NCBI RefSeq assembly: GCF_014202755.1
Contig: NZ_JACHHK010000002.1
Coordinates: forward strand, 124,001 to 188,000
Direction: 5' to 3'
DNA: 64,000 nucleotides
Source: Catenisphaera adipataccumulans
GTDB lineage: Bacteria; Bacillota_I; Bacilli_A; Erysipelotrichales; Erysipelotrichaceae
Both the position numbers and the translations under genes were made by a program. Positions 33,889 to 40,912 of the stretch are shown here, one piece after another (positions within the stretch are counted from its first letter, which is position 1; each line of letters begins with the position of its first letter). The notes below the pieces were generated by a model, which did not search any database, was not told the DNA's origin, and was given only the letters and a program-made list of their open reading frames with translations.

Positions 33889-36294
33889 ATGAAATCATTG
33901 GATCTTATCGAAAATTGGAAGCTTTGTGACTTCCGTTATTGTCCGCAAATTGTGCAGATGCTGATCGTTCATCAAATCTCTGTACACTGGCCGGATGACA
34001 AACTGGCAGAAGCCTGCCGCAAGGTATTTACGCAGCCGGTCTGTGATGAAGTGATGGCTTTGGCCCGTGAACATCGTTCGGCGATCGATCAATGTCAGGG
34101 CATCCATGGCAACAGTGTTTATGTGCTGCTGAATTATGGACTGACCCGTCCGGTCATCAAGGAACATCTGTACGGCCGTGCCGATCTGGAAGATGTGCTG
34201 TTCATGAAACAGGATGAAATCATGCGTACGCTTCATGTATCGGTTTATACAGGCCGCAAGATCATTGCCGCCTGCCGGTTTGCGCTGCATGACTTGGTCG
34301 AAGATGATGTCAAGGCCAAGCAGGATGTCCTGTGCGATGACTTGGAGATCTTCTTTTCCAGCCTGGATGCGCCTGCTGATCTGCAGACGATCAAAGAAGG
34401 CATGCTTTGGCGCAGCGGCGATGCCCTGCTGAACGACCTGCTGAACGACTTGTGTGACAGCCGGATCATTTCCCGCAGCGGGGATCAGTATCAGTATATC
34501 GATAAAAAACCAAGCCTGAGCACGGTCCTTGACCAGATGGAAGATGAAAAGGAACAAAAGGCCGCCGTGCGTCTGCTTTACGGCAAGTCCGTCAGCCGCC
34601 ATCAGGAAGCCATCGCCCGGGCAGCGATCTTTGCGCTGCCGCCGGTCGCGGAAGACAAATACATCGATTTGATCCAAACCTATGATATCAGCGAAACGGT
34701 CTTCTATCAGATCACCAATGCGCTGGAACCGACCTACCGCTACCTGCAGATCCGCTATCCGGTTTCTGAACCAAAACAGCCGGTCACCGGCCGGACCTTA
34801 TCCGGGCCGATCCGTCAGGAACGCACGGTCGATCTAAAAAAACTTCAGAAGTATCTGGAGAAAGAATATTTTCCATACAATGAAACGTGGATCTCCAAGG
34901 AAGATCGTGGTGAATTGTTACGTGAAGTCTGCCGCAGTTTTGACGGCTATTTTTCCAAAGAACAGCTCATTCAGCGGTTCAACGATGTGGTTGCCAAGGT
35001 CCGTCCGGAACGTATGGCACAATGGCGTTTGGATGATTTCCGTGCCGACCGGATCAGCCTGCGGGGATATTTGGTCACTTCGATGAAACGCGGCATTCGT
35101 TATCGGCCGGTCAATGCGGATTTTGTACAGGCGCTGATCGATGATCTGGATATCATGAAATACCGCAATACGGTGCTCTCTGCCAAAAAGCTCTTTGACG
35201 AAGCGCCGAACATCATGGAAAAATACGATATCCGCGATCAATATGAACTGCATTCGATCCTGCGGATCGCCAAGGAGACCTATGCGGTCGAGATCAACCG
35301 CTGGTCCATTGTCCATACGCCGATGATCCAGTTCGGCAGCGGTGATGAAGATCAGATCATCGAAGAAGAGATCCGGCAGCTGGCGCCGATCTCGGTGCAG
35401 AACTTTGTCCGCCGCATGTGCCGGCGTTACGGCTATGATACCGGGACATTTACGAAGTATTTATATAAAAATTTCAGTTCGTATATCCATGACCGCATTC
35501 TCGACTGCGTCGATACCGCGGTGATGGAAAGCGAGGACTATCAGACGTTCAAAGGTATTTTGACCGAGGATTTCTATTTCAGTGAAGACGTCAAAAAGCT
35601 GCTCAAGGAACACGATCTGCCGGCTTCGCTGAACGATCCGTACGTGCTGCGCCGTTTAGGTTATAAATGCCATTCCGGCTATATTTTGAAAGACAAATAC
35701 AATGGTCTGCAGTATTTCCGGCAGCGCATCCTCGATGATCCGGATCTGGTCCTGTCACCGAAATACAATCGAATCTGGTCTTTTGCGTCGGTAGCGAACC
35801 AGATGGAACAGAATCTGGAGATCGTTGAGGTCGACCGCAATGAATACCGCACACCGGCACAGCTAGGTCTGCGGAAAAAGGAACTGCGTACATTTGCGCG
35901 CAATGTGATCAATTACGTCGAAGCCGATACGTATTTCAACGATGCCTCTTTGGCAGCCGACCGCATCGCGCAGAGTGCTTACTCGAATACATTTTATAAA
36001 TCACTGCTGAAATCTGATCCGCAGATCCGGAGCATTTCCATCAACCACGTTTGGGTGTTCAAAAAATCGAAGAAGGATGCCTCGATCGGCGAATTCCTGC
36101 GTTCGATCATCGTGGACCGGATGACGATCAGCGGTTTGTGCACAGTATTGAAAGAACGTTTTGATATCGATATGGAAAAGGGCGAAGTGATGCGCGCTTT
36201 GCGCCAATCCGGCATTTATTACAGCGCCGATACCGAACGCATCTATCGGCAGCGGCCGCCGGAAACCACCTATGCGCAGGAAAGGCTGTTTTAA
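33889..36294 (+). CDS. Large protein of unknown function (801 residues)
   Basis: I do not recognise this protein. It is soluble, helical and rich in charged residues, without signal peptide or membrane helices. Parts look like DNA-binding or winged-helix modules: YGRADLEDVLFMKQDEIMRTLHVSVYTGRKII (around 95-125, resembling a helix-hairpin-helix step), a wing-like SRSGDQYQYIDKKPSLS (around 198), and a last domain with IGEFLRSIIVDRMTISGLCTVLKERFDI and a final wing. A linker with proline and threonine lies near residue 300. ATG 33889 is 6 nt after TATAAT (33877-33882), so the mRNA is probably leaderless; an ATG 6 nt earlier is possible. It shares a 1-nt TAATG junction with the Sel1 gene and may lead the TldD operon. 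Confidence 0.85.
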   Translation: MKSLDLIENWKLCDFRYCPQIVQMLIVHQISVHWPDDKLAEACRKVFTQPVCDEVMALAREHRSAIDQCQGIHGNSVYVLLNYGLTRPVIKEHLYGRADLEDVLFMKQDEIMRTLHVSVYTGRKIIAACRFALHDLVEDDVKAKQDVLCDDLEIFFSSLDAPADLQTIKEGMLWRSGDALLNDLLNDLCDSRIISRSGDQYQYIDKKPSLSTVLDQMEDEKEQKAAVRLLYGKSVSRHQEAIARAAIFALPPVAEDKYIDLIQTYDISETVFYQITNALEPTYRYLQIRYPVSEPKQPVTGRTLSGPIRQERTVDLKKLQKYLEKEYFPYNETWISKEDRGELLREVCRSFDGYFSKEQLIQRFNDVVAKVRPERMAQWRLDDFRADRISLRGYLVTSMKRGIRYRPVNADFVQALIDDLDIMKYRNTVLSAKKLFDEAPNIMEKYDIRDQYELHSILRIAKETYAVEINRWSIVHTPMIQFGSGDEDQIIEEEIRQLAPISVQNFVRRMCRRYGYDTGTFTKYLYKNFSSYIHDRILDCVDTAVMESEDYQTFKGILTEDFYFSEDVKKLLKEHDLPASLNDPYVLRRLGYKCHSGYILKDKYNGLQYFRQRILDDPDLVLSPKYNRIWSFASVANQMEQNLEIVEVDRNEYRTPAQLGLRKKELRTFARNVINYVEADTYFNDASLAADRIAQSAYSNTFYKSLLKSDPQIRSISINHVWVFKKSKKDASIGEFLRSIIVDRMTISGLCTVLKERFDIDMEKGEVMRALRQSGIYYSADTERIYRQRPPETTYAQERLF

Positions 36295-37010
36295 TGGCAG
36301 AAGAATTTAACATGCAGCTGGTCAAACAGCTGAAGGAACAAAAAAAATATACCGAGCTCTACCGGTACTGCCGCACGTATGCGCTGCAGAATAATCTGGA
36401 TGCGATCTGTGAGCTGGCCGGCTGTTTCTATCACGGCTGGGGAACCGCAAAAAATGAGCAGGAAAGCGCCCTGCTGGATTATCAGGCGGCCAAATGCGGC
36501 CATGTGAAATCCATCTATAATTTGGCTGTTGATTATGAACAAGGCATCGGGGTCATGAAAAATCCCGAAAAAGCCAAAGAATTATATGATCTGGCCGCCA
36601 AACAAGGCGATACCGATGCGATGTTCAGCTTGGGCATGTGTTATTTTCATGGTCACGGCACGGCGAAAAGCCTGCGGCAGGCATTGGATTGCTTCAGTGA
36701 AGCAGCCGCCTGCGGCCATGCCCGGGCCCAGTGCGCACTGGGATTCTGCTACCGGGAAGGATTAGGAACCAAGAAGGATCTGATCAAATCGGATTACTGG
36801 CTGAATCTGGCGGCAGATAACGGCAATGCGCTGGCGGCCAAATATGTGGATCGGGATGTTTATAAGGAAGAGATCCACGAGGCGCTGGATTCCATGTTGG
36901 CGGATGCGAAGAACATTGCGCCGCTTTTGAAACAGCACGGTGATGAAATGATCGAGGCGAAGATCGAACGGATCATTGCCTTGTTACGGAAGCATCAGCA
37001 GGAGGCATAG
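36294..37010 (+). CDS. Sel1-like repeat protein
   Basis: A 238-residue protein built of Sel1-like (TPR-type) repeats. The consensus A-x-x-x-L-G-x-x-Y-x-x-G-x-G is seen in AICELAGCFYHGWGTAK, SIYNLAVDYEQGIGVMK, AMFSLGMCYFHGHGTAK and AQCALGFCYREGLGTKK, giving about four to five repeats over residues 35-185, followed by a helical C-terminus. No signal peptide: a cytoplasmic scaffold is likely. Its ATG overlaps the stop of the unknown 801-residue protein (TAATG) and tldD starts 3 nt after its stop, so it couples the two; a partner role is inferred. Confidence 0.88.
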   Translation: MAEEFNMQLVKQLKEQKKYTELYRYCRTYALQNNLDAICELAGCFYHGWGTAKNEQESALLDYQAAKCGHVKSIYNLAVDYEQGIGVMKNPEKAKELYDLAAKQGDTDAMFSLGMCYFHGHGTAKSLRQALDCFSEAAACGHARAQCALGFCYREGLGTKKDLIKSDYWLNLAADNGNALAAKYVDRDVYKEEIHEALDSMLADAKNIAPLLKQHGDEMIEAKIERIIALLRKHQQEA

Positions 37011-37012
37011 AA

Positions 37013-38395
37013 ATGTTAGATCAGGAAATGTTGGAAATGATTCTTTCGCGGGCGATGCAGAGCGAGGCGGATTTCGCGGAAGTTTTTGAAGAAGATACCA
37101 TGTCCGAATCCATTTCGGCTTTGAATGAGAACGTTGAAAAGGTCGATCGGTCCCGGCGGGCCGGCATCGGGATCCGTTTATATCAGGGAAACCGGTCGGT
37201 CTATGGCTACAGTACCGAATGTGACAAAGACTCCTTGTTGGCGTTGGTGGATGAGCTGCGGGACGGTTTTGGCCGGAAGGAGACGAATACGATCGTCGAT
37301 CTGCAGAAGCAGACCTATCCGGCCGATGCCGCTGTCGATCCGGTCGAGGCGCCGCTGCAGGATAAGATCAACTTGATGAAACGGGCGGAACAGACGGCGA
37401 TGGCTTATGATGCGCGGATCGTCAAAGTACAGACCGCCATGGCCAATGTCCGGCAGACCGTTCAAATTGCCAACAGTACCGGTCGGCTGGTGCAGGATAC
37501 CCGGATCCGGACACGCCTGATGGTGCATGCCTATGCGCAGGAAGACGATCGGCTGCGTTCCGGTTTTCATGGACCGGGCGCCGGCAAGGGGCTGGAATTT
37601 TACGAAGAAGCCACACCGGAAGCCATCGCCAAGGAAGCCTGCCGGGTGGCGCTGGTGATGTTGGAGGCGGAAGAATGCCCGTCCGGCCGGATGCCGGTCA
37701 TCATCGACAACGGCTTCGGCGGTGTGATCTTCCATGAAGCCTGCGGCCATTCGCTGGAAGCCACGGCGGTCGCCAAACATCAAAGCGTATTTGCGGACAA
37801 ACTGGGCAAACAGATCGCCAATCGCTGTGTCACGGCGATCGATGACGGTACGATCCCAGGCGCCTGGGGCAGTCAGCACGTTGATGATGAGGGCAATCCG
37901 CAGCAGAAACGGGTCTTGATTTCCCACGGCATTTTGAAATCCTATATGATCGATCAGCTGAACGGCCGCCGCATGGGCATGCCTTCTACAGGCTCCGGCC
38001 GCCGGCAGTCGTACCGGTATGAACCGACCAGCCGCATGTCCAATACCTATATCGCGCCGGGCAAATCGACCATGGCAGAAATGCTTGAAGGCATCGAAAA
38101 AGGGCTTTATGCCAAGAAGATGGGCGGCGGCAGCGTGAATCCGCAGACCGGTGAATTCAACTTTGCGGTCAATGAAGGCTATTTGATCGAAAACGGCAAG
38201 ATCACCAAACCGGTGCGCGGTGCGTCTTTGATCGGCACCGGTGCGGAGATCTTGATGAATATTGATAAGGTCGGTGCCAATGTGGCCCGGGCGCAGGGAA
38301 TGTGCGGCTCGGTCAGCGGCAATATTCCGGTGGATGTCGGACAGCCGACGATCCGGGTCTCGTCGATCACGGTCGGAGGCACCAAGAGTGAGTGA
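37013..38395 (+). CDS. tldD: TldD metalloprotease subunit
   Basis: A 460-residue TldD, the zinc-protease subunit of the TldD/TldE heterodimer that trims unfolded or modified peptides. The metal motif is FHEACGHSLEA (HExxxH, around residue 242), and GSGRRQSYRYEPTSRMSNTYI and GGGSVNPQTGEFNF are family landmarks. The start has GGAGG ahead of it and only 3 nt from the Sel1 stop. The partner TldE is encoded next with an 8-nt overlap, but as part of an HD fusion. In other bacteria the pair matures peptides such as microcins; no peptide substrate gene is evident nearby. Confidence 0.94.
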   Translation: MLDQEMLEMILSRAMQSEADFAEVFEEDTMSESISALNENVEKVDRSRRAGIGIRLYQGNRSVYGYSTECDKDSLLALVDELRDGFGRKETNTIVDLQKQTYPADAAVDPVEAPLQDKINLMKRAEQTAMAYDARIVKVQTAMANVRQTVQIANSTGRLVQDTRIRTRLMVHAYAQEDDRLRSGFHGPGAGKGLEFYEEATPEAIAKEACRVALVMLEAEECPSGRMPVIIDNGFGGVIFHEACGHSLEATAVAKHQSVFADKLGKQIANRCVTAIDDGTIPGAWGSQHVDDEGNPQQKRVLISHGILKSYMIDQLNGRRMGMPSTGSGRRQSYRYEPTSRMSNTYIAPGKSTMAEMLEGIEKGLYAKKMGGGSVNPQTGEFNFAVNEGYLIENGKITKPVRGASLIGTGAEILMNIDKVGANVARAQGMCGSVSGNIPVDVGQPTIRVSSITVGGTKSE

Positions 38396-40133
38396 GGCCG
38401 AAAAGGCACACGCATGGGCGCGGCAGGCACATGCCGGACAAGTCGATCGGGCCGGTGTTCCTTATATCAAACATGCAGAAGCGGTAGCGGAAGCCATGAA
38501 TACGGATCAGGAAAAGGTGGCTGCTTATCTGCATGATGTGCTGGAAGATACCGATACGACCGTTGAAGATCTGAAACAGGCGGGATTTTCGGCCGAGGTC
38601 ATTGAGACGGTCAGGATCCTGACGCGTCAAGACGAATCTTATGAAACCTATATCCAACGGGTCGCCGAGCATCCACTGGCGGCCCGGATCAAGCGGGCAG
38701 ACCTGATCCACAATATGGATCTTAGCCGTCTGCCGGAAGTCAGGCCGAACGACAGGACACGTACGGAAAAATACCGGCGTGCTTTGCGTCAGCTGGAAAG
38801 GAAACATATGAACAAAGAACTGTGGTTTAAGAAAGCGAAAGAAAAAGGCTTTGACGGGCTGGAAATCTATCAGTCTTTTCTGAAGGGAAAAGAAATGACA
38901 TGGTATGAACATGCGATGGATTCCTATACGATCAAACAAAGTACGGACTACTCCATCCGGGCGTTGATCGACGGACATATTGCCAATCTGGCGGCCGAAA
39001 AGATCGACGATCAGGATGCCGATGCCGTTTTGGATGCATTGAAGGAGCAGGCGCAGACGGTGACCGATCCGGATGAAGGCGTGATCCGAAAACCGCTGCC
39101 GGTCAAGCAGACACCGCGGCATCTTATTTGGAAAAAAGCGCCGTCGGCATTGATCAAACAAACGCTGGATGATCTGCAGACGAAGCTGGAAACATATGAT
39201 CCGCGCATTGTTCAGGTTTCTTATCTGGGGTACAGTGAAACCGAAGCCGGACGGTCGATCGTCAATTCCTACGGCATCGATCTGTCCGATCAGGAAGAAG
39301 CGCAGTTTCTGCAGGCCGGCATTGCCGTACAGGAAGGCGATCAGGTCAAGACCGGCGATCTGCTGAAGATCGTACCGGATCTGAGCGCGTTTGATACCGA
39401 TGCGTTCGTGCAGGAACTGGCGGACAAGGCGTTGTTCCGGCTGCAGGGACAGTCGCCGAAAAGCGGCCGGTTCCCGGTGATCTTTGAACGGGAAGCGATG
39501 ACGCAGCTGTTTGCGGCGTTTACCGGCCTGTTCAGCGGGGACTTGATCTATAAAGGAATTTCCCCGATCGCAGGCAAGCAGGGCGAAACGATTTTCTCGG
39601 ATCAGATCACGATCATCGATGATCCGCAGGAACAAGCAGCATTGTCTCAGGCGGATTTTGATGATGAAGGGTGCCCGACACAGAAAACCGTTTTGGTCAA
39701 AGACGGTGTCTTTACGAATATGCTTCTGGATTCCAAGAGTGCCAAGCGGATCGGTGCGGAAAGTACGGGCAACGGCTTTAAGGCCGGTGCCGCTATTTCG
39801 GTCCAGCCGATGAACTGTCAGATCGTTCCGGGCACGGACAGCCTGGAGGAATTGTGTGCGAAGATGCACGATGGCATCGTGGTCACAAGGCTGCAGGGGC
39901 TGCATGCCGGTCTGGATTTTGTCTCCGGCAACTTCAGCCTGCAGTGTTCCGGCTATCTGGTCAAGGATGGGAAAAAGGCGCAGGCGGCGGAATTGATGAC
40001 TGTTGCCGGTAATTTCCTGGATCTGATGAAGCGGGTAAAAGCAGTTGGCAATGATCTGAAATGGGAGTATCATCAAATCATCGCACCAAGTATTTGGTTC
40101 GAAGAATGTGCCGTAAGCGGCGAAGGAGAATAA
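38388..40133 (+). CDS. tldE: HD (ppGpp-hydrolase-like) domain fused to TldE/PmbA
   Basis: A 581-residue fusion. Residues 1-140 are an HD domain of the RelA/SpoT/Mesh1 hydrolase type: VPYIKHAEAVA (His29), AAYLHDVLEDTDTT (His49-Asp50, Glu53-Asp54) and IKRADLIHNM (Asp105, Asn109). Residues 141-581 are a full-length TldE, starting MNKELWFKKAKEKGFDGLEIYQS; as expected for TldE there is no HExxxH. The GTG start at 38388 has GGAGG (38375-38379) 8 nt upstream and overlaps tldD. The internal ATG at 38808 has its own AAAGGAA site, so a separate 441-residue TldE may also be made from the same frame. No stop lies between the two domains. Confidence 0.85.
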   Translation: MSEAEKAHAWARQAHAGQVDRAGVPYIKHAEAVAEAMNTDQEKVAAYLHDVLEDTDTTVEDLKQAGFSAEVIETVRILTRQDESYETYIQRVAEHPLAARIKRADLIHNMDLSRLPEVRPNDRTRTEKYRRALRQLERKHMNKELWFKKAKEKGFDGLEIYQSFLKGKEMTWYEHAMDSYTIKQSTDYSIRALIDGHIANLAAEKIDDQDADAVLDALKEQAQTVTDPDEGVIRKPLPVKQTPRHLIWKKAPSALIKQTLDDLQTKLETYDPRIVQVSYLGYSETEAGRSIVNSYGIDLSDQEEAQFLQAGIAVQEGDQVKTGDLLKIVPDLSAFDTDAFVQELADKALFRLQGQSPKSGRFPVIFEREAMTQLFAAFTGLFSGDLIYKGISPIAGKQGETIFSDQITIIDDPQEQAALSQADFDDEGCPTQKTVLVKDGVFTNMLLDSKSAKRIGAESTGNGFKAGAAISVQPMNCQIVPGTDSLEELCAKMHDGIVVTRLQGLHAGLDFVSGNFSLQCSGYLVKDGKKAQAAELMTVAGNFLDLMKRVKAVGNDLKWEYHQIIAPSIWFEECAVSGEGE

Positions 40134-40135
40134 AC

Positions 40136-40912
40136 ATGCCAGGTAGTTTCAAAAATACCCAGATGCAGGAAGCCATGCGTGCGTTTCAGGAAAACGGTAC
40201 GCCGGAAAATACCCAGCGTTTGATGGAATGTCTGCTGACAACACGGTTGTTGGCGCCGGCCGAATGGGATAAAGATCCGGTGATGGATGAAAACGGACAG
40301 ATGGTTTTTGAACCGGATACGAAGTTTCAATTATTGTTGATCGAAACCGATACCGGCGATCAGTACTTTCCATTGTTTACCGATATGCAGGAGCTGGAAA
40401 AATGGGATAAGAACCATGAGCTGCAGTCGCTGGTCATGGAATTTGATCAATATATTCCGTTTGTGGAAATGGGCAAGGGCCAGGTCAAGGGGATCGTGAT
40501 CGATCCTTATGGAGCCTCGCTGCCGTTTGACAGCGATTTCCTGCTGAATCTGCAGCACCAGACCGATCAGCAGCTCAAGGAAACGACTGTCAAGGAAGGC
40601 GACGATATCCGTGTGCGCAAGCCGGTGCGCAATGTCGACAAATTTGTGGCACGTCTGCGCGAACTGGGCGCGGACAGTCCGGATATCGATGCGATATATT
40701 TAAAAGAGCGGCTGGTCAAAAACAAGCCGAGCCATTGGCTGGTCATTGTCGATATGGAGACGGAAAACACGAAGCTGTTCCAGAAGTTAGGCGAAGGCTG
40801 CCGGGGCATGACCTACGGCAAAGATATGGAATTTGCGTTTGCCAAGACCCAGATCGGTCAGGAACTGATCAAGGATGTGGAGCCGATTTATGTGAAGGAA
40901 CCATCGGAATGA
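40136..40912 (+). CDS. SseB-like protein
   Basis: A 258-residue cytoplasmic protein resembling SseB (enhanced serine sensitivity) proteins: an N-terminal SseB-type domain with LMECLLTTRLLAPAEWDKDP and PLFTDMQELEKWD, a middle GIVIDPYGASLPF, and a C-terminal domain with ESRL-like repeats (DAIYLKERLVKNKPSHWLVIVDMET). The biochemical role of SseB is not established. AAGGAG precedes ATG 40136, 2 nt after the HD-TldE stop, so it is the last gene of that operon. Its 3' end overlaps the convergent TetR gene by 25 nt. Confidence 0.8.
   Translation: MPGSFKNTQMQEAMRAFQENGTPENTQRLMECLLTTRLLAPAEWDKDPVMDENGQMVFEPDTKFQLLLIETDTGDQYFPLFTDMQELEKWDKNHELQSLVMEFDQYIPFVEMGKGQVKGIVIDPYGASLPFDSDFLLNLQHQTDQQLKETTVKEGDDIRVRKPVRNVDKFVARLRELGADSPDIDAIYLKERLVKNKPSHWLVIVDMETENTKLFQKLGEGCRGMTYGKDMEFAFAKTQIGQELIKDVEPIYVKEPSE

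Follow-up and report, generated by a model that had tools for sequence, protein, structure and literature searches.

The window, that is, the whole stretch of 64,000 nucleotides analysed here, contains the tldD gene on the forward strand (37013–38395), encoding a protein of 460 aa with the metal motif HEACGH. It is preceded by the gene of a Sel1-repeat protein (36294–37010, same strand) and followed by a single open frame (38388–40133, same strand) that starts with GTG, ends with the stop codon at 40131–40133 and encodes a protein of 581 aa. The latter consists of an HD domain of 140 aa (38388–38807, residues 1–140), predicted to be an Aph-type (p)ppApp hydrolase, and the complete TldE (PmbA) with its native ATG (38808–40133, 441 aa, residues 141–581), with neither a stop codon nor a linker between them. 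The next gene on the same strand, encoding an SseB-family protein (40136–40912), has counterparts directly behind tldE in relatives (42% and 35% identity). The fusion of an HD hydrolase and full-length TldE in one frame had been proposed in an earlier sequence-only reading, and it is confirmed, as the frame is open through all 581 codons. The HD residues H29, H49-D50, E53-D54 and D105 are at the positions given in that reading, and R21 and N109 were located as well.

Pfam finds HD_4 at residues 7–84 and the TldE C-terminal domain at residues 359–578 of the fused protein, the TldE central domain being slightly below the cut-off. The locus has the features of a TldD/TldE system, with a full-length TldE and an adjoining TldD carrying HExxxH. 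Like TldE/PmbA (5nj5, 1vl4) and its TldD partner, it has tldD directly upstream and the SseB-family gene downstream; unlike them, its TldE carries the 140-aa HD domain at the N-terminus and starts 420 nt from tldD.

In relatives, tldE directly follows tldD. This arrangement was seen in the 11 relatives inspected first. Each of the 29 closest relatives lacks an HD gene at this place and has tldD and tldE overlapping by 8 nt, ATGAATAA. A GGAGG-type motif is situated there inside tldD, eight bases ahead of the tldE ATG. The window has the same motif at the same place (GGAGG, 38375–38379, forward strand, spacer of 8 nt), where it serves the HD domain instead of tldE, and the HD start overlaps the tldD stop by 8 nt, GTGAGTGA (38388–38395, forward strand), in the same slot. 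Since the HD GTG exactly fills this slot, the HD gene took over the old tldE start at the border. Further, given the direct tldD/tldE overlap in the relatives and the same SseB-family gene after tldE, the point of entry was exactly at this border. The native TldE start, ATG AAC AAA (MNK, as in the relatives), is now 420 nt downstream of the old slot. The codon usage of the HD part, measured as likeness to the long genes of the genome, is 0.28 per codon, compared with 0.38 for tldD and 0.41 for tldE; it is less genome-like than these two, though still inside the range of ordinary genes.

The HD domain had been labelled Mesh1-like. This label is not correct in detail: the domain belongs to the short Aph type and has Asp in its Q-x-D-[KR] motif. 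Its top match by sequence among solved structures is 7smg, a hydrolase of (p)ppApp (E 2.3e-27, residues 5–140); (p)ppApp is a toxic alarmone. The matches to Rel proteins (E 6e-11) and Mesh1 (E 5e-6) are weaker. The AF2 model of the domain (pLDDT 96.6) superimposes on 7smg with TM 0.95 and rmsd of 0.9 Å, and on Mesh1 with TM 0.78. As 7smg is closer both by sequence and by TM, we reject the Mesh1 identity. Mesh1 and other small alarmone hydrolases share the HD superfamily and the metal-binding residues with the window domain, but they are longer, about 180–210 aa, and match it more poorly (TM 0.70–0.85; E 5e-6 or weaker).

The alignment of 34 HD homologues has fifteen invariant positions, which include all metal and catalytic residues, among them H29, H49, D50, E53, D54, D105 and N109. 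The family motif Q-x-D-[KR]-x-G is represented in the window by Q18-V-D20-R21-A-G23. The Q-x-D-[KR] part is present in 96 of 105 Aph-like loci, versus 7 of 55 more distant HD loci, and may set the base specificity. With an HD fold of about 140–150 aa, the full-length match to 7smg and intact catalytic residues, the domain is most likely an Aph-type (p)ppApp hydrolase, its substrate being assigned by similarity only. It agrees with the Aph1/7smg family in length, fold, catalytic residues and the Q-x-D-[KR] motif, with 39% identity; the Aph1 of Bacteroides caccae (7smg) is credited to Ahmad et al. 2023, PNAS, in PMC12226406. The Aph family is described as one of immunity enzymes reversing the (p)ppApp made by Apk2 toxins (PMC12226406, PMC11699363). 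The known Aph1 enzymes are free-standing and encoded beside Apk2 toxins in prophages (PMC12226406, PMC11699363), whereas the window domain is fused to TldE and has no toxin nearby.

Indeed, no Apk2-like toxin was found beside the HD domain, its neighbours being the Sel1-repeat gene, tldD, tldE and the sseB-like gene. With no recognised toxin next to it, the domain is an orphan. Nor was a (p)ppApp-synthetase toxin recognised in the genome, which has Rel and two ordinary-looking small alarmone synthetases (L131, L132); its RelA_SpoT domains are on contigs other than that of the HD domain.

The TldE part has retained its own start. A ribosome-binding site and ATG exactly at the domain border had been noted from the sequence, and both are borne out: the Shine-Dalgarno motif AAGGA (38798–38802, forward strand) lies 5 nt before the ATG at 38808. 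The TldE proteins of relatives begin at the same methionine, M141 of the fused protein, which is invariant. In this genome, 44% of 151 long-ORF starts have a Shine-Dalgarno match of at least 5 nt before them, as opposed to 2.1% of the internal in-frame ATGs (n = 2,094); a genuine start at 38808 is thereby favoured about 21-fold. Thus the internal start exceeds the chance expectation. As for the claim that one gene makes two TldE forms, the second start is plausible by the Shine-Dalgarno statistics, and the two products themselves are predicted. Given GGAGG at the 38388 start and AAGGA at the ATG, it is plausible that the long HD-TldE and free TldE are both made.

The fusion is rare. A TldE passing the cut-off of E < 1e-40 is present in 83 of the 272 family genomes surveyed. 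The full-length TldE frames in this survey are about 437–493 aa, and that of the window, 624 aa, is the sole fused one. A search for the same fusion in relatives had been suggested; it yielded none in the 82 other TldE-bearing genomes. A further 160 HD loci, drawn from public genomes and from viral contigs, have no TldD or TldE nearby, and a genome-wide scan returned no close relatives of the whole fused protein. The fusion is thus known from one genome, the relatives returned including none of the same genus. Two separate genes in relatives, which the sequence-only reading had named as evidence against the fusion, are what is seen in every relative examined; this shows that the fusion is lineage-specific, rather than unreal. 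Hence HD-TldE is a lineage-specific new pairing of two known families.

We further considered the HD family in other contexts. When 315 genomes of the order were searched with a profile, 86 loci scored at least 100 bits, most of them free-standing genes of about 145 codons. Frames of at least 230 aa were observed at 13 of these 86 loci, compared with 2 of about 155 for RidA, a protein of similar size taken as the control of the fusion rate (p 4e-5). Reading of the sequences confirmed nine of the 13 long frames as extended proteins (p 0.002). Another candidate control, MGS (PF02142), was dropped, as it is a domain of large enzymes. According to Pfam, the partners include NUDIX (L062:2598–3596, 332 aa; from a relative), whose HD comes nearest to the window domain of all homologues (55%), microbial PARG (L084, G058:C40), GNAT (L086, G089:C192) and a RlmI-like SAM methyltransferase with PUA (L070, G094:C155). 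A guanine-deaminase-like amidohydrolase (L071, G258:C1) is fused to a more distant HD. Long C-terminal extensions without a family assignment are present at L072, L085, L166, L201 and L327, and that of L201, by eye, resembles an endonuclease/exonuclease/phosphatase domain. An N-terminal extension of about 50 aa ('YLIDRKCGNRIYR..LDPF.NEW') recurs on the HD proteins of one genus (L074, L076–L080, L082) and has no Pfam match.

Viral contigs commonly carry relatives of the HD domain, with at least 521 candidates. Identity to the window domain reaches 51% among the Aph-type HD genes on viral contigs (L266–L345). Five genomes of a single genus have an HD gene that overlaps the start of a methyltransferase gene, and in G094 the two are in one frame via one extra base, as aligned by eye, the methyltransferase start being lost. 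The HD neighbours form a mixed set: 111 proteins contain 182 Pfam families, none with more than three members, and no conserved toxin neighbour was found among these proteins. With its scattered contexts, mixed neighbours and occurrence in viruses, the HD domain behaves like a small mobile gene, inserting into operons and occasionally becoming fused.

Starting from the observed frame, insertion point, intact catalytic residues, fold, family and start-site statistics, we consider it probable that an Aph-type gene was inserted at the tldD/tldE border, that both the fusion and free TldE are made, and that the HD domain is an orphan (p)ppApp module, the role of TldE being unchanged. A complete (p)ppApp-hydrolase gene would have entered exactly at the border in this lineage, its GTG taking over the 8-nt overlap and the Shine-Dalgarno motif that drive tldE in relatives. 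As the HD domain has no stop codon, ribosomes coupled from tldD would make HD-TldE, and the retained ATG and Shine-Dalgarno motif of TldE would still allow for the free protein. Expressed from a borrowed housekeeping operon, the domain would most likely be an orphan module of detoxification or immunity that hydrolyses the 3'-pyrophosphate of (p)ppApp, and TldE would most likely keep its ordinary role with TldD, the two activities being presumably independent. The likeliest function is removal of (p)ppApp by an independent activity that is expressed with the tldDE operon, alongside two forms of TldE.

An alternative is that a real fusion arose recently and is selectively neutral, the HD stop having been removed by a one-base indel in the genome itself; the fused protein would be tolerated, and free TldE made from the internal start would do the work. 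This agrees with the retained internal start, with the fact that no other TldE is fused, and with the HD-methyltransferase fusion of G094, seemingly produced by a like event, an extra base at the overlap. However, the HD start in the old slot of tldE fits an in-frame domain insertion equally well, and we regard the neutral indel as rather unlikely. The extra base could also be an assembly error near the end of the HD domain, as the sequence-only reading allowed for in mentioning a hidden stop. The HD domain would then stop at TGA 38809–38811, and the products would be separate, but translationally coupled proteins. This TGA is in the +1 frame and exactly overlaps the TldE ATG (ATGA, 38808–38811, forward strand), so that one base fewer would make an ordinary ATGA pair; short ATGA-type overlaps are usual between the HD gene and the methyltransferase gene that follows it in relatives, and tldE is a separate gene in all relatives examined for it. 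On the other hand, the HD alignment is in frame to its last residues, and HD fusions with other partners are seen in several independent assemblies. Moreover, a frame-break scan with a codon model trained on the genome, filtered for opposite-strand shadows and edges, left one credible break in 464 kb (the window and another 20 stretches of 20 kb each), at a sensitivity of about 60% (69 of 116 planted 1-nt deletions recovered). In the window's genome, the surviving break affects a primase-like phage gene (L096:7110; G000:C2 near 215,110). Comparison with the proteins of a relative yielded no split genes in the 25 kb that could be aligned, a length too small to carry weight. Since frame breaks are rare in the assembly, a hidden indel at the junction is unlikely. 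The chance of an error within the 15-nt junction is small, but the fact that the site was selected for looking fused raises it, and overall we find an error distinctly unlikely.

The sequence-only reading had linked the alarmone level to peptide trimming: the HD domain would sense or remove an alarmone to control TldD/TldE. In the model of the fused protein, the last HD helix (123–139) passes into the first TldE helix (143–152) without a linker, and the domains would therefore be physically close; the model was built from a TldE-only alignment and its HD part is poor, so the domain arrangement is read at the short junction only. However, the fusion occurs in one of 83 TldE-bearing genomes, the HD neighbours are random-looking and have no theme, and with all its catalytic residues kept the domain has the look of an enzyme and not of a sensor. 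As the family is found in many other places, usually alone or with unrelated partners, a specific alarmone–peptidase link is unsupported, no sign of selection for coupling with TldE is seen, and we consider such coupling very improbable.

Returning to the Aph-type module inserted at the tldD/tldE border, the other fusions allow for a more general, and tentative, possibility: the Aph domain might be a transferable protective module, joined in frame again and again to unrelated housekeeping proteins (TldE, NUDIX, PARG, GNAT, the RlmI-like methyltransferase, the amidohydrolase) and making the cell constitutively resistant to (p)ppApp toxins; HD-TldE, with its two starts, would be one such case. 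The Aph enzymes known so far are free immunity proteins beside toxins. The presence of the domain on housekeeping enzymes of several kinds, with no toxin, suggests that operon insertion and gene fusion can spread (p)ppApp protection. This recurrent fusion is the more interesting lead, and HD-TldE offers a clean test case, a single gene with two possible starts and two activities that can be separated.
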